Origin: Halichondria panicea
Lineage: Eukaryota; Porifera; Demospongiae; Suberitida; Halichondriidae
Direction: 5' to 3'
Assembly: GCF_963675165.1 (NCBI RefSeq)
Contig: NC_087393.1
Coordinates: forward strand, 1,141,002-1,205,001
Length of the DNA stretch: 64,000 nucleotides
Each line of letters begins with the position of its first letter. Position 1 is the stretch's first letter. Below the pieces are notes generated by a model that saw nothing but the letters and a program-made list of their open reading frames with translations, was not told the DNA's origin and made no database searches. Positions 986 to 29,932 of the stretch are shown here, one piece after another. The position numbers and the translations under genes are program-made.

Positions 986-3900
986 TCAGCCAGAGATGAC
1001 CCTCTGCAGCATGGTGAGGGCAGTGTCCCCGTTGTCAGCTGGTACCTGCAAGGAGAGACATTTGTAAAGTTCGACATAATTTATAGAATACCGTATAGTA
1101 AACTTTCGCAGAATGACCGGATTTAATTTTATGGAATATCAGCCTTTTTTTATTAAATTTGTGGTGATAAAATTAATTAATGTTTGCGGTACGTGCTGAA
1201 TCAGCGAAAACCGCAAACACCCTTGAAATACACCCGGTTACGGTACATAGATTGTAGTTACAGGAATGGAATATCAACACACAGACAGACATTACACACA
1301 AACCCCTCACACCCACACACCTCACACATAAACCCCCACCCCTCACGCACCTCACACATAAACCCCCCACCCCTTACACACCCTCACCATGTGTCCAGCA
1401 TTGAGTATCCAATAGAAGGCGAGGTTTTTGTACGCCTGATAAAAGCCACCAGTGTGTTTCTTAGTGTGGTCAGTGTCAGGGTAGACAGGCATTTTCTTAG
1501 CAGCCTTAAAACTAGGCAGTCCAGTCCACTTGAGTTTGTCCATCCAAGCCACAGTGCCTGTAGTGATAAAAAGGTAATAATTATATGTAACCAGGAGTGC
1601 ATGAGTATGTAACTATAGCAGGATATAATTATCCCAATTAATTTCAGTGTTCCTTGCATCATCAGCACCTGTGTTCTAGTCCCTGGGTTTTTTCTTGTGT
1701 TTACCAATATGGGAACCAAACACATTCCTAAGTAGACTTCAAACAACTTTAATTGCCAACTCATCATGACCATGCAATAACCAGGGACTTACCTTGAGTA
1801 CAGCAGATGAGGTCCAGCTGGCCATTGTACACAGTCACATTTACCCCCATAGAGAGTAGCTTGTCCACTGTATGAGGGAGGGTGAGCGGGCATAATAAGT
1901 ATCACACAGATACAAGTACACCCCTCCCCACTAGCACAGACCTGTGCTGATGACATCCTTCATGAAGTCCACTCTTTGTTTCTCAAACACTTTCCCAGCT
2001 TGCGCTACAGAAGTCAATTACCTTTTGAATTTGACACAGATTAATCAAAACACAAACCAATCTTCCTAAAAGATACGTTATGAATGTATCAATTGTTACA
2101 AAATCAGGCTGGTCAAATTCAATTTGCAAGTGCAGGTTCTCAAAGATAGTTACTACCAATAGAATTAGGCTTCGATAACGTACAATAATCGAGCAACTCA
2201 CATCCCCAAACCACTTGGTCCGGAATGTGGAGCTTCTGTTTGATTGGTCCGTTCATGAGTTGACTGAGTGATTGGGCATTGTACCGTTGCAGGATACGAG
2301 GGAGGCCACGCCCACTTTGAAGGGACGTTACTTCGTCATCGTTATGACGCAGGATGTTATAGAAGTCCACATCATCAGTCAACTGCGTGGAGGGGGAGGT
2401 AATTGTGGATGGGCAGGGTGTCATACAGGATTTTAAAGTTGGGGAAATAAGAAAAGTAACCGGAAAATTTGGCTAAAAAAAGGTCAATGTTATTTCGATA
2501 CCCTGTTAGTATGTAAAATTGCCAGCTATCAGGGTTTCATACAGGATTTTTAGCCAAGGGGGGGAAATGACGACAGCCGTACGCCGTTGAAAATTTGGGG
2601 GTGGGTCCGGGGGGCAGCCCCCGGAGAAAATTTGGCAGAATGATTGTCTAAGGTGCAATTTTGAGGTTTTGTGATTAAAACTATTCAGTCTAGTTCTTAA
2701 CTGCATTGTACACTTAACTCACCAGAAAAAAAAAATGTTTGAGCAAAGCAGAAAAGGTACTTAAATTGACCTCTAGTGTGTACAGAGCCTATGGTCTCAC
2801 TATGTACATGCTCTGCTTATGTTGTAAGGTTTAAATTTCAAAGGGTATCATAATAATAATTGTATACATGCATTTTGTGTATGTAATCTCCTGTCTGACC
2901 TTTTGAACTGTACCGTGTGCTAGATTGGATATACATGTATGCACTCCTGATGTATGTAAGAGGCTTTTTATCAATTGATACATGTAGAATAATCATTATA
3001 GCTACATGTAGATCTATCTGAATCACTGTACAATTTGGTATGACATCATTAATTTTTCATATTTCCAGGGAGGAATTTTGGCCAGGGGGGAAATCCCAGG
3101 GCCGGCCCCCCTCTGTATGAAACCCTGGCTATAGACACTCAGTCATACAACTACTACTTTTAGGGGGGATATGCCACCTTCCCCCTGTACACACCCTGAT
3201 GGGTATACAGTACTGTAGTAAAAGTTGGTTGAATTTCAATGGCTTGATGATTATATGAGAACTTAAAAGGAGCCCGTTCAGATGGTAAGTAATCTCATAT
3301 TCCAAACAGGAAATTGCACTTTGTAGTGCCCAGCAATATTACACTCGACTCACTGCTTCAATGACATCCTCAGTCTGAGACCAGAGCTCAGTGGACCTGG
3401 CATAGTCTCCATTGTTGAACGCAGCCTCGGTCTGTTTAGAGTAGTTTTGAATACGAGCCAGCTCCGCCTCATTCACTAGCGACTGTGTGTGTGTGTGTGT
3501 GTGTGTGGGAAGGGGATTATGAGGTCAACGCTACACTTCGACTCACTGGTATATTGCAGTACACTCACACAGGAACTAATATTATTCACTGAAAAACCAG
3601 AACTAACCGTTGCAAAAAGATATGGACCCCACATGTTGACGTAATCTATGCAGAGGGTAAGCAAAGAGCACATGAACCAGTGGGAAAGGCATAGCAACAG
3701 TGGCCTGGGGTACTCACCAATAGCAGAGATCCAGCTGTCCCCAAGACCCACACCTTTGAAGACTACTGAGACATTCCCTGCATTGATGGCCTACAAATAA
3801 TCATTAACAATAATAAAAGCTCCTAGAATCGTTAGGAAAGTTAAACTGACCTCTTGAAGCACTTCAGCAAAAGCAGCTGTCATCTTTCCACCGTACGACT

Positions 3901-4661
3901 CACAGAATATGTAGAATGGCATTTTCTGCGTGACCACATGTCATGAGAATATGAAACACTCAAGCTACATCCTCACACATGCCATAATAAATATGTAGAA
4001 AATCACTAATGAAAAAAACAGTGTTCACATTACATAATTGGTACCTGAAAAACAGAGTGTGTTTTAAGAAAGGCACTGAAGAGTGAGAGGAGATCCTTAG
4101 CAATCTCTGCAACGTCAGTGGTATATGCTGAGTCATCATCAACGTAGCTATATCCGGTGCCAACAGGGTTATCGATAAACAGAATATTAGCCACCTGAGT
4201 CCAAGTGGTGTTTCTAGGTCTGAGGTTAATATCCAGCGGTCCAATCTCCATGAAGTTCCCGAAACCAGTCGATGAGCTTCCTGGTCCACCCTAGAGGAAG
4301 GAACAAACAAGACGTGTTATTGCAGCTACATGTAGTGACATTGGGAATTACCCAATTTATGATATAGGTAATAGCAATGTAATGAAGGTTGCATTTTGTA
4401 CGTAAACGTATTTTAATTGTAGTATCACAAAAGGACTGGACTACAACAGAAGTACGTACGTACCTGCAACCACAAGACGAGAGGAACTTGTTCCCTGTTC
4501 TTGGTGCTGTCCGTGCACCCATAGAGCCACCAGAACATGTGTGCAGATGTCCTCACATCCACAAAGCCCCAATCCTCGTCTGGGATGACTGGAGCTGTCG
4601 ACTGGACGCTGCAAACGAGCAGTAGAAGGCTTAATCCAAACACTGCAACTGGAGATACCAT
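986..4661 (-). CDS. SCPEP1: Retinoid-inducible-type serine carboxypeptidase, copy 1
   Basis: A peptidase S10 family secreted or lysosomal serine carboxypeptidase, closest in my reading to vertebrate SCPEP1. Eleven exons run from ATG at 4661 to TGA at 986-988; exon 1 is 4661-4464, exon 2 is 4290-4045 and exon 11 is 1045-986. Exon 1 has a hydrophobic signal peptide (start [10 protein letters not shown]) and the WWLYG segment. Exon 2 has the [13 protein letters not shown] oxyanion-loop region and [11 protein letters not shown]. The catalytic triad is visible: Ser in CESYGGKM (about 3900), Asp in YNGQLDLI (about 1820), His in NAGHM (about 1385). Predicted length is about 435 residues against about 450 for vertebrate SCPEP1. 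No stop or frameshift was found. Copy 1 has Ser where copy 3 has Gly in GGPG(S/G)SS, a position that varies in S10 enzymes. Confidence 0.88.
2530..3127. mobile_element. Element C copy 1: CAGGGTTTCATACAG-ended repeat in a carboxypeptidase intron
   Basis: An approximately 600-bp insertion between exons 6 and 7 of carboxypeptidase copy 1. It begins CAGGGTTTCATACAGG and ends CTGTATGAAACCCTG, so its ends are inverted repeats. A second copy lies in opposite orientation at 48,254-49,438 and shares the interior, including G-rich and C-rich blocks and a region reading GATAGATCTACATG on one strand. No transposase is seen, so it is probably a non-autonomous DNA element. Confidence 0.7.
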
Positions 4662-4909
4662 AAAACAGCTTTATGCTATGTGCAGCTTAGCTTTGACACT
4701 TCCACTGAGGCATCAGCACCGTACCCACGGTGCTTTTATTATGAAATAGCAATTAATATTATACATTCTTGGCTAGAATCAAAACTACTCTGATTCCAAA
4801 AATAGAGTATAGTGTCGTTGTTGGCTTTGTTCATGTGAGACTCTTATATAGCTAGCTACAGCCGGCCGGCCTAAGCTAGCTCTAGCCATAGATACTATAA
4901 ATTTATAGT

Positions 4910-5176
4910 ATGGCTACACCAAATTAATCTTATGTTTCACGGATTTTCCGGGTCATATTTTTGCAGAATGCCAAAAAAATAGTGGTCCAGGTCAGAGGTC
5001 AGAATGGCCATGTGATCTAGCAAAACGTTGTAATGTTTTGCTAAAGTGATTTTTTGTGGTGTGTTGTGACTCTGTTTGTGGTTTTATAATGATATTCATC
5101 AATTTTTTTCTTTTCTTTGCCTGCCACCCTGAAATTAAAATTCCGTGAAACATAAGATCAATTTGGTGTGGCCTAG
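4910..5176. mobile_element. Miniature inverted-repeat element (GGCTACACCAAATT ends)
   Basis: The left end reads GGCTACACCAAATTAATC and runs into TTATGTTTCACGGA. The right end is its imperfect reverse complement, TCCGTGAAACATAAGATC followed by AATTTGGTGTGGCC. The inverted arms are roughly 34 bp, separated by about 195 bp without coding capacity. This is the structure of a MITE. No other full copy was seen in the window. Confidence 0.65.
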
Positions 5177-5510
5177 CTATGCTCTAGCTCTTCCAGCTAG
5201 CTAGCTACCAGTGTGGAGGTGAAAAAGATGTCCACGACATAATACAGAACAGTTTGTACTTCTTTGTAATAATTGTATCGATATACTTTGTTTTTAGTAG
5301 TCTGTAATGGGTGAATTTATCATCTATATAAATAAATACAGTGTCTACAACGTTATGACAGATTGACACATAGTCTTCTCCCCGCTCGCTTAATTGTTTC
5401 CACGCTTTTTGGTGCTGCCCTTTAGCGACTCGCAAATTGCATGTGTGATGTAGTATTATTGCAAGCAAGGGACTCCCCCCCTTGTTTACTTACATCATGG
5501 TACACAGTCC

Positions 5511-5628
5511 CAGAGGAGGTACGACAGGCGCAGTGAATACTAGTTATCCACCCAAACCCTGTGTTATACTGCTGAGTTTAATCAGAGGCTAATTGCTGAG
5601 CTGCACCGTGCTTGTCGTACCTCCTCTG
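5511..5628. mobile_element. Element A copy 1: CAGAGGAGGTACGACAG palindromic MITE
   Basis: A 118-bp segment begins CAGAGGAGGTACGACAGG and ends in its reverse complement (CTTGTCGTACCTCCTCTG). A second copy lies at 48,097-48,239. Inner sequences such as AATCAGAGGCTAATTG and GAGCTGCACCG are shared. An imperfect direct repeat starting GCAAGCAAGGGACT flanks it at 5461 and 5651, suggesting duplication of the surrounding host sequence. Confidence 0.72.
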
Positions 5629-6802
5629 ACACATGCAGTCCAATACATATGCAAGCAAGGGACTCTCCCATGAAGTTTTGTTCAGATTATGGTACACACT
5701 CATGCAGAGTCAGCCTGGGCTCAAAGAAAAAAGAGCTCGTATGATTATAACTAGCAAGCACCCTTATCATATACTTATTCGATTTAAGGCGATACTTATA
5801 AAAAATTACGAAGCCAGAGGTCGGCGTTTCTTTTGGAGTTTGAAAAATTATGATGAAGTCATGGTGTCAAATAATTATCAATGCATGCAGCAGTCACTAC
5901 TTTAGAAGTTAGAAAATTGCCTACAGCTTACTGCACAGTAGCCTCGATCCCAGGCCGAGTTTTCGCTTTTATAACGGTTAGGCGAACAGCTAACTGCACA
6001 GCAACTCTTCATTTTGCATTAACGCGTCGATTAAACGTGCATGTGCTTTAACACAAAAAGATCTTTTGCCACTCACGACGGTGGATAGCAATGGTTGCTA
6101 TTATTTTTTGCTTGAAACCACGCCCCGTGCACAACCTCTATAATTATATAGATCTAGTTCAACGCCGTAAGAAGATATTTTATGGTGCATGGGGGGGGGG
6201 GGCTTGAGGTGAAATTATTCATTTTTATGCTCTCAGAAATAACCGTATATATAGCGGGAAATTTTCGCGGATGCAAATTTTCCCAGTACATAAAATAATC
6301 TGCAGAAGGCATATTACAGTCTGCCCCCAGCCCCCCTGGTTCTTACGGGCATGTGACCATAAGCTTCATGTCGCACAGCTTTGGTGCCTTAACCGAGGCA
6401 TCATCAGCACCCGTAGTGCATTCAATGTAATCAGTATAATTGTATATAATTATACATGCAGCAAATTTAGCCACTTACTTCTCCATCAGGGATTGCAGCA
6501 CTGCTAGCAGTAGCTTGTTAACATTAGCTGCAAGTATATAGTGGGATATGCAAATGATGACTCACATGCAACTACAAATTACTGTGGATCACCAAGATAC
6601 TCATGCATACATGTAGAGCAATCACCCCGTGCGTTGTGAACTTCATCGCATAGCAGCAAAACCGATACAATAACTTTTTACCATAATGACCTTAGAATTA
6701 TCACAAATCAGGAATGATTGCATGTGAATCTAAAGCAACAATTAGAAAACAGTGTTTTTTATCGCCTTCAAAGATCGCCTATTATACAAGTTTCAACTAT
6801 AT

Positions 6803-6852
6803 TTATGCCTCGGTGCGCATGCGCAAGCGAGGTATACGGTAGTGTGTTTGTA

Positions 6853-6890
<38 letters not shown>

Positions 6891-7371
6891 CTATTTCAGC
6901 TGCTCAAGGATCAATAAAGTGCAAGTAAGAGTTTCTATAGGCTTCTAGTCATGTTTTCTTGGCATGCTATTTGTGGATTTGCAAAATAAAGCTTCGTTCT
7001 CGAGTTATGCCTAGTTTTGCTTACTTGGAATGCCATTGCAGCCTTTTCAGAAGAGTCCGTAGCAAAACTTGTTCACCGAGTGTTGCTACTCTACTTAGTA
7101 GTTAGCTCTGCACTAGAACGCTAGCTATTGGTAGCTGCAAGAGTGAGAAGAGAGCTGCAAGGCTCTGCTGACTTGCAGCCATTAATTTTAGCCTTAAACT
7201 TTTGGCCTCGATCGTTTTTAACAACAATCATGGTCGATCATTACCCACTATTTGAGTTTTCCACATGCAGTAAAATGAAAAATGTTCATCATGACAATGT
7301 GTGTATAAAAGCTAGCTATTAGATTATGTAGCTTTGGCACCTCCACTGAGGCATCAGCACTCGCGGTGCTT
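6803..7371. mobile_element. Element B copy 1: non-autonomous repeat with ATGCCTCGGTG ends
   Basis: An approximately 570-bp unit starts TTATGCCTCGGTGCGCATGC and ends near CACTGAGGCATCAGCAC followed by GGTGCTTTCA. The ends contain an inverted pair, ATGCCTCGGTG and CACTGAGGCAT. An opposite-strand copy lies at 48,681-49,277 with long shared tracts, for example GATCAATAAAGTGCAAGT (one mismatch in the other copy). It includes a (GT)n tract near its left end at about 6855-6890. No ORF or transposase is seen. Confidence 0.68.
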
Positions 7372-7979
7372 TCATATTATAAGTAGCCTAAACCACTGTC
7401 TCATTAGCAGTTAAATCAGTCCATGTTTAGTTTCCTCAAACAGCTCATTTTGTGTCCACAAACAGACACACACACACACCAATCACTCTACCCCTACTGC
7501 GCGCTGTGCATGTAGAGTCGCAAGCCACTCCTTTTTCTCTGATTGGACGGGGGCAGGAAAAAAGTACTGGTGACTCTGGCATACAGTAGACTCCTTGTCC
7601 TAGAAGTTGGGTTAGGTTAATCTTACCATAGCATGTGATCCAAACATTGCGTGAAGTAGTAGAATTGCGCAGCCCGCAAGTGCTCGGCTTCTTAGCTACA
7701 GATTGAGCTATAGTGCATGCTATAGAAAAGAGAAGATTGATGAAGTAATAACGAGAGCAGGCATTCAGCTAGGATATAGTCATCTAAGAGACCAGCAGAG
7801 ATTATACTTAGTGATGAGAACTGGGTGTGTTATTGGGTGCCCAAGGCTTTTGATAACCTGTGCAATACAAGACAGAGGGCAGCAGTTGAATTGCTAAAGT
7901 CATATAATTATAGAGTATAGTTGTCAGACACATACAAATCGCTGTCACTCGGTTCAAAAAATTAGGGCTGCCAAGATCT

Positions 7980-10183
7980 CTACGTCATCAGCTGTTCCAT
8001 GCTAATCCACAAGTTGTGGCGCAATGGACATGCACTGCATGTGTCAACAGACACTGTGGTACAAGGATCTATATCAAAAGGCTGGTTAGATAGATTTCTT
8101 TTTTACACTCAGCCAATGATGCATGGTGTTAGTTTCGCCTGCATGAACTCTTGTGGTGTTGGTGGAAGTGTACTTACATGGCTCATCTTGTTCCAGCTTG
8201 GCTTCTGGCTGCATATCTGGTTCTTTTTGTTGCTCATCTTGTTGCTCCAGGGCCTTCTTCAACTGATAATAGTATTGCTCACGAACTGCATGTAGTGAAT
8301 TAATTAACATCGAACATGTGAAAATTAAAGGTGTTACCTTCACGTTAATTATATATAGTGGTGGAAGGACTTTACCTGGGCCATCTTGTTGCCGCTGGGC
8401 ATCCTTCCGCTGATAATAGTATTGCTCACGAACTGTATAATTACTGTTTATTCTCACGTAACAACAAATTATGTGAACAACTATAATGGTGTCACTTTTG
8501 CATGAATTCCAGTAGTGTTGTTAGTGGAAGGGATATACTTACCTGGGCCATCTTGTTGCTTCAGGGCGTTCTTCAGCTGATAATAGTATTGATCACGAAC
8601 TGCATGTAGTAAATTACATGCATATATCGAACATGATTAATGAGGTGTCACTTTAGCATGAATTTTAATCTGTGGTGTTAGTGTAAGGTACACTTATATG
8701 CCTGGGCCATCTTGTTGCTCATGAGAAGGCCAGATATTTATAGTATTACTCACAAACTGTAATAGTTATGACAATTATAATGTTGTGAACCAACTAAAGT
8801 TACTTTTGCATGAATTCTAACTATATTATAATATCACAGTAAAAACAGATTCGTTACAAACATCTCAAATAAAATGCGAAATTTAATGTAGAAATGACAT
8901 AAATTTCTGTCCGGCATTTTAACACTAAAATACGATGATGCATCCCATATATATAACATATGTGTTTTTGCATATAGTTAGACACTTGTAGTATAGACTA
9001 TATTTAGTTAGGCCTAGGTCATTAGAGTTATTTATACCTATAATTTCCTAGTTAGTCCTGTTTTGTGTGTATTTAAGTCAGTGCATGGGCTGTGTATTAT
9101 ATTCATGCAGTTTTACTGCCATGATCTTGTTGCTTACTGAACCCCTATCAGTTTAGCTAGTGACTCAGCTAGGCTAACACACTACACACTGTTTTGGAGG
9201 TGTCTGTGGGATTTAGAAGCCCAAAGGCACTGATTTAGTATCCCGAGCGTAGCGAGGGTACACTACAAGTGGCTGAGGGCTTCTAAATCACATGGACACC
9301 GACAAAACAGTGTCTAGATACTAGTGCGCATGCACAAACCGCTTGATTACAATATACATGCATGATTATTTGACAACGGAATACTATATGTATTGTATAC
9401 TAAGTAAATTGGACTTAGTATACCTGCTCTGAGGCACTTTTCCCATGTACTTCCCATGTAGATCTTATCAACTAGTGTCTAAAGTGATGTTGTATATATA
9501 ATTATATACATATATACTTACCAGGGCCATCTTGTTGTATCTGAGCATTCTTCTGCTGATAATAGTATATTTGCTCACGAACTGTATAAAAATAATAATT
9601 CTCATATTCTCATACAACAACTATATCGAACATGTGAACCGACTAAAATTAATGGTGTCACTTTCGTATGAAATAATTATACTGGCCAGTATACTGTGGT
9701 TTGGCAGATAAAATTGTATCACACTTAAATAGAGCAGAATGACTTCATTATCCTCGAGACAAAACTGCAAAATAGATTTGAAGTAAGGTCGTTTTTTTTA
9801 GCTGCGACTATTTTCTGAAATGCAGCCACCTCGCTATTCCAGCCATGCAAGCTACACTGTCCCAAGGGTGACTGGATTAACGAGAGTCTGTATATCATAT
9901 ATATATACTTGCAATGGGCCATCTTGGGATAATAATTATAGTATTGCTCACGAAATGTAGTAAATTTTATGACAATTATAGTGAACCAACTAAATAAATG
10001 ATGCATGCATGCATGTTATCTACTTTGGCATGAATTCTATAGTGGTGTTGGTGTAATGTATATACAATCATCATGATATATTATACCTGGGCCATCTTGT
10101 TGGTTTGAAGAGAGAGCAGAAGAGGCCACGGCCATATACAGGAGAGATAGCAAAGCCACACTGGCAATCATTGAAATCTTCAT
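7980..10183 (-). CDS. Secreted protein built from repeated 57-bp exons (VREQYYYQ...QQDGP repeats)
   Basis: Not a family I recognise. Exon A (10,183-10,087) encodes a signal peptide starting MKISMIASVALLSLLY and ends QQDGP in phase 1. Intact repeat exons follow leftward at 9581-9522 (60 nt), 8599-8543 (57 nt), 8432-8376 (57 nt) and 8285-8178 (108 nt), all phase 1 to phase 1. Each encodes the pattern V-R-[ED]-Q-Y-Y-Y-Q-x-K-x-A-x-x-Q-Q-D-G-P. The third residue is Glu in all but the 8599 exon, and the 9581 exon has one extra Ile. The last repeat is extended with an acidic Gln/Glu/Pro-rich tail ending EQDEP. A likely final exon (8053-7980) adds a short Cys-containing C-terminus and a TAG stop; this is the least certain part. 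Two further exon copies, near 9953-9907 and 8755-8699, have damaged splice sites or stops. The predicted product is about 150 residues, secreted, Tyr/Gln-rich and without membrane segments after the signal peptide. Confidence 0.65.
8699..8755 (-). pseudogene. Decayed repeat exon inside the secreted-repeat gene
   Basis: The sequence matches the 57-bp repeat exon: its 5' end has TTTGTGAGTAATAC and its 3' end CAACAAGATGGCCCAG. It carries an in-frame TAA early and its donor reads GC instead of GT. It is probably skipped in the mature transcript. Confidence 0.6.
9186..9313. mobile_element. Short inverted-repeat element (ACACTGTTTTGG ends)
   Basis: A 128-bp segment begins ACACTGTTTTGGAGGTGTC and TTTAGAAGCCC. 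It ends with the imperfect reverse complement GGGCTTCTAAATC followed by GACACCGACAAAACAGTGT. The arms are about 36 bp with mismatches. The centre contains GAGCGTAGCGAGGG. It lies inside an intron of the secreted-repeat gene and is consistent with a MITE or foldback element. Confidence 0.62.
9907..9953 (-). pseudogene. Decayed repeat exon with lost splice sites
   Basis: The minus-strand sequence TTCGTGAGCAATACTATAA and then AAGATGGCCCA match the 57-bp repeat exon. The acceptor AG is changed to AT before TTCGTGAG, the middle is shortened, and the donor GT is gone. It lies between the signal-peptide exon and the first intact repeat exon. Confidence 0.55.
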
Positions 10184-12877
10184 ATTAATATAAAAATCTT
10201 TTAGCAACTTAATTAAGGGAAGTGCAGTGAAGAGTGATTGCAGGGAATGGTCATTAGTCTCGTGGACCAGCTGTTTGCATTGACAGGTGGTTAGTGGTTG
10301 GAGGGACGGATATGTGAAACCTCATAATTAGATTTGCCAAATCTAGCAGTGCAGCTGTGCGGTTTCACAACTTACTATAAACATTTATCAGCCACTTTGA
10401 GCGCCACGATATTCAGGGTCTGGGTCCGCGAGACTAAATGGTCATTGATCCTATAATATACTCAGCCTGCATGTATACTCATAATTATAAGCATAAGATA
10501 GTTATCTATTGATGTAAGGATGCCGGGATTCCCTAGGACTGTTCATCATTCCAGGTATATATAGTCTAACCACCAGCAATAATAACACTGCACCACACTA
10601 GCTCGTATACATGCATGCAGTAAATTGAATAATACCGTCTTTCTTCTAATTACAGCGCCACTTATTATTTTCCGGTGCACAAATAGAACAAGAAAAACTA
10701 TAAATTCCAGTTTGGCGCTTACATTCGAGTGGCGCTTAGCAATAGAACGTGTAGCTGTTTCCACAAGGCTATCATATAGATCAGTTGTCAGTTGTATATA
10801 TGTATAGATCCTCGATTAAAGGCCACGTTATATCTAATTACCCGCCAGCAAAAAACAAATTTCACAATTTACCTGGCGCTCAATTAAAAATATTTTGTGA
10901 ACTTGGCGCTTCTATTATAGAGTGGCACTGGAATTAAAAGAAAGACAGTACACCTGTAGCAAAAGCAACATTCCAGGTAAAAACCACACAAACTGCATGC
11001 ATGGATTCACAGATCTAATTTCCTCGGCTACAATGCATGCATGCATGCACTATAAGTACCGGTATAATTATATTAGCTTATGCATGTGTAACTTCGCTAG
11101 CTAGACCCCAGGCCTATAAGCTTAATAATGCATGCCCCAGAGAAGCTCCCCACTGAACTCAATAGCTTTCAGAATAATTCGTATAACACAAGACTGCCCT
11201 AAGGCATCACATGACAACAGTATGACGTGGCAGCCCTAAGGCCCACGCCTTACAATTAAAGAATAATACAATAACAATAACTCATATATAGTCACTTGGT
11301 TACACATGCAGAAGCCAGAAGTCAACTATACACAGAAGCCAGAAGGGTCATTCTGTATCAATTCAACGAAATTTAAAACGTGACCTCTTCAAAATTGCAC
11401 GAAACTTGGTATATGTATGAGGAATGGTATATGATAACATCTCAGAACAATTTTGTGTTTGTAAACAATATGGCTTCTGAGATTGAGTTAATCATTATTC
11501 TTGTGTTGTATCATTGAGCAGGTAGATTGATCTTGACACTGTATGATGATACCTCGAGACCTTCTGCTTCGCACCTGAATGTAGATAGTAGTATAATTAT
11601 GATCATTGTATTTCTTCACCATCACTTGTGATCATTCTACTACAATGTGGCATCTATATGAAGCGTCTACCATGCTCAATGAGACAATGGGGGTACATTT
11701 ATGGGATGCAAACACTAATAAAAATAAAAAGCACTCCAGCCTGTTGGTAAAAAATTAGCATTTTGTCTGTTGATACATGGACTATACTTAGGCTTAGAAA
11801 ATCACATGAGGAACTAGCAATTTCAACGGCATTATCGGTAAATCGTCGCAATGTTTGACCTACTAGTGGTACTATATGTGCTGCTACCCATAAAAATACT
11901 TAGACTGGAAACCACGCCCCTTTCTTTAGGGAAAGAGACTGGCTACGACTCGTCCCAACGGAATGCTTGGAATGTAGTGTGTGCATGAATGCGTGGGAGA
12001 GATCTAAACCACAATAATTATTGCACACTAAGTTATAATTGATTTTGTGTGAGTATTATTTTTAGCTGTACAGTTGCAGTATAACTTTTATGTCTACTAT
12101 AGCTGTTTAGATATAAGTTGTCTATCAGTACTTCCAAGGAAGCAATTCTAAAGTTGCTCTGCAAGCAGCTAACTTGGCTGGTTACAAGGCCACTGCACAA
12201 ATAACAGACAGAAGTAGCAGAGATATAGTTATTGTCCACTAACATCGTATACATGTATAGAGGGAAATTTTTGTGTTTTTCGAGGGCATTGAACCGCGAA
12301 TACCCACGAAAACAGCAACTGTCGTCAGGGGCAAACCATAAGCACGTGGCATTGTGTTCAGCGCATGCATGCACAATGCATTGCAAACAGTTGCAGTTTC
12401 CCATCTCCTTCACTTCCAAGTTGCATTATTTCCACATGGCCTCCCTTCCCAGTGGCGTATACAATGGGGGGCTTTGGGGGCTTGAGTACCCCCCTGTCCT
12501 CCCAGACAACCATGAAACTAATTCTATCACTCAGTAGCTAGCTAGCTAGCTAACTGTGCAGCTCCAGAGATACATGCAGCTCTATCTCACGGTTACAAGT
12601 AATGACCACGCCCAATTGAGCATGCGCAATCAGCATTGCCATTGCCATTCCAATGTTGTTATGTAATGCATAATAGCTGATCAAGATCCTCTGCACTCTC
12701 CCAGTCACCTCTTGCTCCACTGAGAGATACTGCAAAGCAATGACTAACACTAGAATTACTGGACATCCCCATTGCAGTGATTGACCAGTTTGCTAGGATG
12801 TACCCCTGGAGAATAGTGCATGGAGATCCTACAAGATAACTGACTCATAATTATGTCTTATTATCACACTATGCATG
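10184..12877. other. Gene-poor spacer
   Basis: This 2.7-kb stretch upstream of the secreted-repeat gene has no coding exon I can support. It presumably holds the promoter of that gene near 10,184-10,400. AT-rich sequence, several GGCGCT/AGCGCC motifs between 10,650 and 10,930, and unremarkable short open frames are all that is visible. Confidence 0.45.
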
Positions 12878-13106
12878 TACCGTATAGCGCGAAATTTTCG
12901 AGGGGCTTAATTTTCGTGGATTTCGTGGGTTAGCAATCCTACACGAAAATTAAGTCCACGAAAATCGTTCTTTACCTGCTATAACGTGCAAGATTTAAAG
13001 GCGTGGCTTCCGGTAAGCAGTCATTCCGCGAACATTGTGCAACGAAATAGTTTTAGAGGCTAATCCACGAAATATAAGTGCCTCGAAAATTTCGCGCTAT
13101 ACGGTA
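12878..13106. mobile_element. MITE family TACCGTATAGCGCG, copy 1
   Basis: A 229-bp element has ends TACCGTATAGCGCGAAATTT and the exact-type reverse complement AAATTTCGCGCTATACGGTA. Two more copies lie at 51,169-51,398 and 51,491-51,730, in the opposite internal orientation. Shared interior features include CCACGAAAATTAAG-type blocks, GCTTCCGGTAAGCAGTCATT and GGCGTGGC. The terminal TA on both sides is compatible with TA target duplication as in Tc1/mariner-type MITEs, but the superfamily is inferred only. Confidence 0.8.
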
Positions 13107-19152: not shown

Positions 19153-21477
19153 TCACGAGGTACAGACATCATTGTCAGGTGTAAGACTCCTGTGTCCTAA
19201 TGAAGAAGTGGATGTCCCACGAGGATGATGAAGATCATTGTTTACAAGAGTTTGTTGTCTGCAGGACAACTCTGGTGCTGACCCTTGGACGACAGTAGAG
19301 TGATTTACCGCTGAACTCGACTCAGAGAGCGAGCGATGTAGGTCTGTCATTTTATTGCCTGTGGGGCAGTAAAAATAATTCATTATAAACCATCACAGCT
19401 ATAACCAATTACATCTAGTGAATTCATTTTACCTTGGTTTTCACTCCTCTGAGTCGCCTGTGCTATAAGCGGACGTTGGCTAAGAGCCCTAGAAATAGTT
19501 TAAGTATACAATTAGTATACACATCTGATCAAATGTGCATGAAATTAACAGAGATGTGAATGCTATAGACTGTACATGTATCATGGCTTACTTATTTCTA
19601 GACTTCACCCAATAGCACAAGCACAAGCAAACTGCAATGAAGACGACAGTCATGACAATACATGTAGGTAAACCCAATCCAATTAAAAGGCCAAGGATGA
19701 GTTGTTGTTGACGAGGATCGATCGAATCACCCGGTGGAGAAGACGTCTCATTGGTCGGCTTTTCTTGAGGGATAGTTGATTCTGGACATAAGAAGTCAGG
19801 ATTCAACTCGAATGTGGCCAGAAGATATGTTTGGTTGCTACTGAATTGCTGTGAGTGGCAAGCAAGGTCTTGGACGACAGAAACAGTTGAATTACTGAAC
19901 AGTAACACATGACCATCAATCAGCTGGTGATTGATTTGCGCATCGTCAGCGAGAATGATTGTTTGGTTGTCCAGAAGGTTTGTGAGTGCAATGCTACCGT
20001 CTCTCGAAGTACCGATAAAATACGTGGCATCTTCAATCGTTGCACAGTCACCGACGTATCTCTCCGACAAGTTCAATGGATGAGGGATCACATGATCTAA
20101 CAGTCCGGGCGATACCAGCGCTAAAGTTTCACTTCGTTGCTCAATATAAACACCTTGAGGGCAGTGAAACCTTGTTTGAGTTCGCTTAAAGCCGACTCTC
20201 ATTCCCCCACGATATATCACGCTGATGTTGATTAGATTGTTGTCTGAGCAATACACTAGCAGATTATTTAAGTTTCTCGATTGCCTCACGTCCGTCACAT
20301 TGTTTCCAAAGCATACACTCCTGTTGGTGTCAGCATAAAAATGTTCAGCCGATGAGAATGAATTACCATAACCGGGTAGAACAGTGAATAAGACGTCATC
20401 GTCAAACCAGATCACATGACTGTCACTAACTAAATCAACACTAGAGAAGAATATCGGAGAGAGGCCAGTAGAGTACGATTGATACGGGGTGTCAATATTG
20501 TCGTTCAGCAGCGATAGGGACGACTGGTTCAAATCCTCAAAGTCGATGTGAACTTTGAACAACCATAAATCTACTTTAAAATGAGCAAGTGGAGTGAAGC
20601 GAACACACGATACCACACGTCCATCGTCTGATGGGCTTTTTGCGATAGAGGTGAAGCTACAGTTGACCTCTTCTTGCGGGCCAAGTATGAACTGGTCTAT
20701 TAGGGTCAGCCTATCACTGTTTATGCCAGCAAATAGTGCCAGAGCAATTCCGGCTGAATGGGGGACTATAGCCACTTCTCTGTTGTTTGGAGCGTTTTTG
20801 ATTAGGGTAACACGACATCGCCACAATCGATCACCACAAGTGCTAGGGAGATATACCCCAGGGAATATTGCGTCACGTTGTATAGAGATGTTAGTTGAGA
20901 TTAGACGAGCGGATACCACCAAATCATTTGAGGACTGTTGAACAGTAAATTGGGTACCTAATAGAGACGAACCTGCAGTGAGAGAGAATACTGCATGAAT
21001 GGGCTCGTACCAGCTGGGCGTGGCCCGGCCTCTGTTCTGACGGATGGCCGGGGGACACACTTATAGAGGATTTGTACTGCTTTGTGCAATACTGCTCTCT
21101 GTATTAAGCGTCATGAATAAAATTATAAACTGGCTATGAATATTGTTATTTTAGAATACTGCAATCTGATTGGGTTACACTCCTCAGTGCAGCAGTACAA
21201 ATGTTATATAAGCGTGTCCCCCGGCCACCTGTCAGAACGGGAGCAGGGCCATGCCCAGCTAGGCTCGTACTGTACGTCTGATAATTACATGTACGTAGAT
21301 CTAGTCTCTTCAAGTTCTATTTATGATCTACATGATGTACACGTACGTACACGTACTGTACTGTGGTTGAATCTAATTTCTATACACTAGTACATGCAGT
21401 AAGTACGTACCTTGTTGAGTTTGAGCATTGACCACAGCAGTAACAGAAAACAACAACACAGTAGGAAAGAGTTCCAT
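19153..21477 (-). CDS. Signal-peptide type I membrane protein, copy 3 (unknown family)
   Basis: Four exons fit in phase: 21,477-21,411 (signal peptide, MELFPTVLLF...NAQTQQ), 20,972-19,592 (ectodomain plus TM), 19,488-19,433 and 19,358-19,153 (cytoplasmic tail, TGA stop). Total 569 residues. The exon 2 donor is AA|GTAAGC, so splicing avoids the TAA that would otherwise end the frame after KSRNK. The ectodomain of about 450 residues has around ten N-glycosylation sequons (for example NLS, NVT, NQT), few cysteines and repeated short beta-like segments that might form a propeller (speculative). One TM (LILGLLIGLGLPTCIVMTVV, extending into AVCLCLCYW) is followed by basic KSRNK. The tail is Ser/Thr-rich. 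It is immediately downstream of a carboxypeptidase gene in each tandem copy. No known family is recognised. Confidence 0.78.

Positions 21478-27073: not shown

Positions 27074-29932
<2,859 letters not shown>

Follow-up and report, generated by a model that had tools for sequence, protein, structure and literature searches.

The minus strand of this locus carries short exons that repeat one unit of tyrosine, glutamine and lysine, and the question is whether they belong to a real gene, where the relatives of that gene lie and what its product might do. The window is the whole stretch of 64,000 nucleotides that was analysed, positions 1141002-1205001 of contig C17. The genome searched was the 131.5-Mb assembly of 39 contigs, and all family search counts in it are lower bounds.

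Gene model on the minus strand of the window

The window gene looks real from its sequence, with predicted splicing and secretion. A leader exon, four repeat exons and a terminal exon were joined in phase to a spliced model of 432 nt, which holds one frame of 143 residues and a stop codon (Table 1). The leader encodes a lysine, a hydrophobic core and an ASSA-like end and was judged by eye to be a putative signal peptide. An AG acceptor, a GT donor and phase-1 ends are present at each of the four repeat exons, and five units in the window match the in-frame unit motif, four of them with the acceptor. A preliminary description of this DNA had proposed a leader exon with four usable phase-1 repeat exons, and these were all found on the minus strand with their splice sites. 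The exon length of 57 bp given there was correct for repeat exons 2 and 3, but not for the first (60 bp) and the last (108 bp). The small secreted Tyr/Gln-rich repeat protein of symmetrical phase-1 exons that it had claimed fits the gene model, whereas its gene limit at 7980 was too short, since the terminal exon that completes the frame lies beyond it.

When the loci searched were compared by tblastn with the terminal exon of the C6 paralogue L050, VDELLLAVVQSMLDE, a counterpart was observed at 6527-6475 with an E value of 0.13. Both exons have a common ttgcag acceptor and a common donor position. In the paralogues, a donor is found at the position of the terminal-exon end (AA/GA before GTRAGT) and leads to the last few codons. 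When the genome was searched with the form of this 15-residue terminal exon found in L056, three places were returned, all of them on C6, and 6527-6475 was not among them.

Table 1. Exons of the predicted gene and neighbouring features in the window (positions counted from the first letter of the window)
Feature	Positions	Strand	Remarks
Leader exon, 97 nt, MKISMIASVALLSLLYMAVASSALSSNQQDGP	10087-10183	-	Phase-1 end; homologous leaders on C6
Repeat exon 1, 60 nt, VREQIYYYQQKNAQIQQDGP	9522-9581	-	atacag/gtaagt; one extra Ile
Repeat exon 2, 57 nt, VRDQYYYQLKNALKQQDGP	8543-8599	-	atgcag/gtaagt
Repeat exon 3, 57 nt, VREQYYYQRKDAQRQQDGP	8376-8432	-	atacag/gtaaag
Repeat exon 4, long, 108 nt, VREQYYYQLKKALEQQDEQQKEPDMQPEAKLEQDEP	8178-8285	-	atgcag/gtaagt; one unit and a divergent tail
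Terminal exon, SNVNKLLLAVLQSLMEK and stop TAA	6475-6527	-	Homologous to the last coding exons of the paralogues; closes the frame
Decayed repeat exon, FREQYYNYYPKMAH	~9913-9954	-	Without AG acceptor; boundaries by eye
Decayed repeat exon	~8702-8756	-	In-frame stop, GT donor lost, AG acceptor kept; boundaries by eye
Segmental duplication carrying the gene, window part	1277-12879		Other copy C17:1121380-1133011, outside the window
Short mobile-element-like sequence, 181 bp, inverted ends	about 10256-10436 (within 10246-10446)		AATGGTCATT flanks both sides

Relatives of the gene in the genome

The protein search (E up to 10) gave at least 17 matches from 18 scored candidates, ten of them on C17, in the two copies there, and six on C6; the last, on C9, was taken as a chance match because its E value was 9.9. 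With DNA, at least 27 matches were obtained, six on C17 and 21 on C6 (1834763-1872275). The leader gave at least 16 matches, all those listed being on C6, with at least six in cluster A (1063850-1150489, minus strand) and at least ten in cluster B (1796560-1877046). Together with the two on C17, the family has at least 18 leader exons, and a frame-shifted nineteenth was found in L018. The gene had been described as belonging to no known family, which is right in that no Pfam family reached its cut-off, but with this number of leaders it is not a lone orphan.

Among the matches listed, the confident relatives of the units were confined to the C17 pair and the two C6 clusters. The possibility that the repeats are a transposon family spread over the genome, against which the preliminary description had wanted its gene to be checked, was tested in this way. 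A transposon, satellite or dispersed repeat was rejected, as all 27 of the listed DNA matches and 16 of the 17 protein matches lie on C17 or C6. When an 18-base pattern was searched with at most 2 mismatches, other contigs were matched too (32 matches, versus 18 in the backward control).

Genes of cluster B are strings of phase-1 exons, either VREQGYYKQLMDALKQQDGGP or longer forms, where the short units are about 185 bp apart and mostly have tttactatacag acceptors and gtaagt donors. One spliced model from this cluster has 16 exons, 457 residues and a GC donor after the leader. In a second type of cluster B gene (L054, L057, L058) a single long exon of SNYYYKAQMQQDGGP-like repeats is present instead. 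Such long in-exon repeat arrays are frequent in structural proteins. As a rule the exons of the family measure 57-117 nt, and some are longer. Two kinds of end are found in the family. One is a short leucine-rich exon, present in the window gene and in cluster B; the other, in cluster A, appears to be a divergent SUEL/rhamnose-lectin-like domain. A member of the SNYYYKAQMQQDGG subfamily, read from the sequence of L059 (C6:1850900-1855000), is broken by in-frame stops.

Splice sites and constraint on the repeat units

The splice sites were counted in a motif-only scan because the pattern that collected the units for the dN/dS analysis itself required AG and GTAA/GTAG-like sites. In cluster B (L050, L055, L056), 32 unit starts were chosen by the in-frame protein motif with splice sites disregarded and two AG distances allowed. 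An AG at an allowed distance and an in-frame phase-1 donor were present in all 32. For a control, the scan was repeated on the minus strands of L050, L055 and L056 and, for six other 10-kb loci, on both strands; it gave no match, so that the 32 starts with splice sites exceed what chance would give.

The dN/dS ratios are indicative only because the units evolve together by exchange. For the commonest class, the 20-codon units (n = 16), we obtained pS 0.062, pN 0.007 and a ratio of 0.12, whereas the other classes gave 0.33 (37 codons, n = 7), 0.82 (18 codons, n = 3) and 0.60 (19 codons, n = 3). A cruder grouping, which overlooked the units of 20 codons and included unrelated frames, had given 0.65 (18 codons), 0.94 (35) and 1.18 (37) and was later replaced. 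Read with this caution, the ratio of 0.12 indicates purifying selection on the stalk unit of 20 codons. The exons of the short C6 units (n = 18) diverge by 0.020, compared with 0.044 in the upstream and 0.147 in the downstream introns, and those of the C17 units (n = 4) by 0.157, compared with 0.335 and 0.503 in the flanking introns. Among the C6 leaders, dN/dS was 1.19 for ten distinct ones (one of them broken) and 1.52 when all 11 were compared over their first 15 codons; between C17 and C6 leaders it was 0.70.

The C-terminal exon of cluster A

In the cluster A genes read, an exon of 88 codons comes after the leader and a Tyr/Gln exon. The 88-codon exon has at least 13 matches in the genome, six on C6, three each on C5 and C11 and one on C10, the two weakest with E values of 0.003 and 0.2. 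Eight of the nine exons read were aligned, and all eight matched the Pfam family SUEL (PF02140) at E up to 0.1 (best 4.2e-5); the score of one member, 19.6 bits, missed the curated cut-off of 31.4. When the profile of the exon was compared with the PDB, the rhamnose-binding lectin 5h4s was matched in three stretches (E 6.9e-13) and CSL3 (2zx0) at 2.6e-4. These matches suggest that the exon encodes a divergent SUEL/rhamnose-lectin-like domain. In the DP-x-x-G region it reads DPYxGCxK, while the solved rhamnose-binding lectins have DPCxGxxK.

In the window, the lectin exon had no match beyond chance (best E 0.70), and the window gene is without this domain. Cluster B is also without the lectin end, and a scan of viral contigs with the lectin exon found no relative. 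In L060, L064 and L065 (C5, C11) the exon stands behind other leaders, without the Tyr/Gln unit in the stretches fetched, which suggests that it was spread by exon shuffling. In L061 (C6:1052600-1054800, minus strand), open frames that we take to resemble a retroelement integrase precede a lectin-like exon nearly identical to that of L063.

Because of the lectin heads, a role in defence was ranked second after a role in the matrix. The products would then form a diversified secreted recognition or defence family with a constant leader, a variable stalk and, in some paralogues, a lectin head directed to microbial sugars, and the repertoire would arise from duplicated genes, differing numbers of exons and the skipping of exons. 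Besides the SUEL-like ends of cluster A, the tandem clusters with their many young copies and a design resembling that of the schistosome micro-exon genes are in line with such a role. Three close lectin exons also had a nominal excess of non-synonymous over synonymous change (pN 0.058, pS 0.024, ratio 2.49), but this excess consists of few changes, and the nominal ratio of the five cluster A lectin exons together was 0.81. As the lectin end is missing from both the window gene and cluster B, and as purifying selection appears to act on the 20-codon stalk unit, we regard defence as a rather unlikely main role.

Duplication and state of the window copy

Aligned over 11,643 positions, the stretches C17:1121380-1133011 and 1142278-1153880 have 99.13% identity, and another 9.9 kb is repeated about 21 kb on with 99.02% identity. 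The window gene is therefore inside a tandem duplication of about 21 kb, and a second copy of the gene is found 21 kb away. The two C17 copies have no difference in the 432 exon bases, whereas about 3.7 would be expected at 0.87% divergence (chance of zero about 0.02), which is a modest hint of constraint on the exons. The tandem duplication (window 1277-23568; C17:1121380-1164569) comprises two full units and a partial third at 99% identity, and inside it are older repeats, 83-95% identical. Elsewhere on the contig, C17:1091002-1115607 (L036, L031, L032) is an array of 1-2 kb blocks with 85-99% identity, several of them about 4-5 kb apart.

In both C17 copies the 181-bp element separates a TATA-like stretch from the 5' UTR. 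A genome search with this element gave at least 60 matches on many contigs (best 40 of 73 candidates scored). In six of seven C6 promoters a TATA-like box is found about 80-90 bases before the ATG, and L014 is without one. Because of the mobile element between the TATA-like box and the 5' UTR, the expression of the window copy is uncertain; expression of the C17 pair may be weak, or its 5' UTR may be longer. The 700 bases downstream of the stop codon of the window gene contain neither AATAAA nor ATTAAA. The intron that separates repeat exon 1 from repeat exon 2 holds an inverted repeat (9182-9317) with 50-base arms, 82% complementary, and a 36-base gap, which is probably another inserted element.

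The position of the mobile element, the lack of a poly(A) signal in these 700 bases, the two decayed repeat exons, the long introns with inserted repeats and the ratio of 0.82 for the 18-codon units, two of three of which are from C17, would all fit a decaying, little-expressed offshoot of the C6 family, the window gene now being without function. We think this unlikely, as the remaining exons retain their splice sites and frame, the exon bases of the two copies are identical against the expectation, and the divergence among the C17 exons is less than half that among their introns.

Composition and predicted fold of the product

The basic unit has 19-20 residues, contains Tyr, Gln and Lys and ends in DGP or GGP. 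Of the 120 residues in the predicted mature C17 product, 26 are Gln, 12 are Tyr and 10 are Lys. AlphaFold2 was run on repeat exon 4 as a single sequence and predicted a helix at residues 2-20 (block pLDDT 91 and 85), followed by a region of low confidence (59 and 61). Since the units end in DGP or GGP, the modelled product is likely a chain of short helices with breaks. The idea that single units are amphipathic was dropped, since single units and tails did not exceed shuffled sequences.

The repeat had no Pfam family above the curated cut-off. The GIT coiled coil (PF16559; 23.6 versus 28.7 bits, E 4.1e-5) was taken as a match of helix composition and rejected, and in the PDB, searched at E up to 10, a nucleoporin at 0.47 was the sole match. 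When ten open frames of the window were scanned against Pfam, five had matches at E up to 0.01, and myosin head, myosin tail and an SNF2-related domain were above the cut-off, which marks the window as eukaryotic and animal-like. A minus-strand frame of 490 residues (19588-21060) had no match in Pfam at E up to 0.01; a stretch close to its end is hydrophobic and membrane-like. At 28603-29180 of the window, a long CA/GT dinucleotide repeat adjoins a frame with short protein repeats. A genome search for the cathepsin family gave at least 77 matches, and in one of 12 loci examined, L071 (around C9:2570213-2570782), a cathepsin-like exon has a Ser at the expected position of the catalytic Cys (ATVSSWAF). 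Silicateins have Ser in place of the catalytic Cys, but this alone was not enough for that assignment, and L071 was not accepted as a silicatein.

A leader followed by near-identical units could also be a multi-copy peptide precursor from which the units are released as small peptides, a role suggested in the preliminary description. The unit borders have no dibasic site, whereas dibasic pairs are found inside the units (two in the C17 product and five in a C6 product of 436 residues), and the unit length varies within one gene. The precursor role was therefore disfavoured and we consider it highly improbable.

Proposed function of the family

The explanation we favour, though tentatively, is that of an exon-modular secreted stalk, most likely a component of matrix, mucus or an adhesive, with lectin-capped paralogues; its splicing, secretion and function are predictions from the sequence. 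The window locus would be one of two near-identical C17 members of a secreted modular multigene family. The number of units may grow through unequal exchange of an exon together with its intron, about 185 bp for each short cluster B unit. Gain, loss or skipping of an exon would leave the frame intact, because the introns on its two sides have the same phase. Each unit would form a short helix broken at D-G-P, giving a flexible helical stalk, perhaps assembled via the leucine-rich tail and cross-linkable via Tyr, Gln and Lys. The most likely job of such a stalk would be that of a secreted matrix, mucus or adhesive component, a role suggested by the composition and the repeats only. In the lectin-capped paralogues the same kind of stalk would be attached to glycans. 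If the family is structural, its members are candidates for matrix or adhesive proteins of a kind that would escape homology searches.

With its tandem exon-intron units, in-exon arrays and decayed exons, the family is a clear snapshot of the birth of a gene family by exon copying and shuffling. A more far-reaching view, which we hold to be improbable, is that a non-model and probably early-branching animal evolved a combinatorial secreted system in which a single leader is combined with a stalk of phase-1 exons that can be inserted freely or skipped, and with exchangeable ends, these being a leucine-rich helix or a lectin. If it were true, few tandem genes could give many stalk lengths and valencies for building matrix or recognising microbes. 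Titles and the opening parts of abstracts in the literature gave no published description of a Tyr/Gln-unit family, so that it appears to be undescribed as far as these parts go.

Comparison with known systems

By its profile, the 88-residue end exon of cluster A is like the SUEL or L-rhamnose-binding lectins (PF02140; 5h4s, 2zx0). In cluster A, this exon is joined to a stalk that seems to be absent from the other lectin genes of the genome. The family also resembles silk-, byssus- and cement-like proteins, which are repetitive structural or adhesive secreted proteins. It shares with them the secretion, predicted here, the low-complexity Gln/Tyr-rich repeats and, in some paralogues, in-exon arrays. 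Unlike in these proteins, the repeats are largely on separate exons, and they had no Pfam or PDB sequence match.

A further likeness is to the micro-exon genes of schistosomes. The exon size limit of those genes is about 36 nt, and it is doubtful whether exons of 57-117 nt are 'very small' in the same sense. According to a published account, the majority of the coding region of micro-exon genes is in very small symmetrical exons, their products are secreted, with protein variants from alternative splicing, and the genes appear restricted to platyhelminths (PMC4350168). The present family has in common with them the secreted products, predicted here, the coding region mostly in small symmetrical exons and the multi-copy organisation, and in both a gain or skipping of exons that is neutral to the frame is possible. 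If isoforms exist, the modularity at the level of exons would lead to variable secreted proteins, as is thought for the schistosome genes. Unlike in those genes, the exons here are larger, mostly 57-117 nt, and repeat one unit, and the likeness claimed is one of design.
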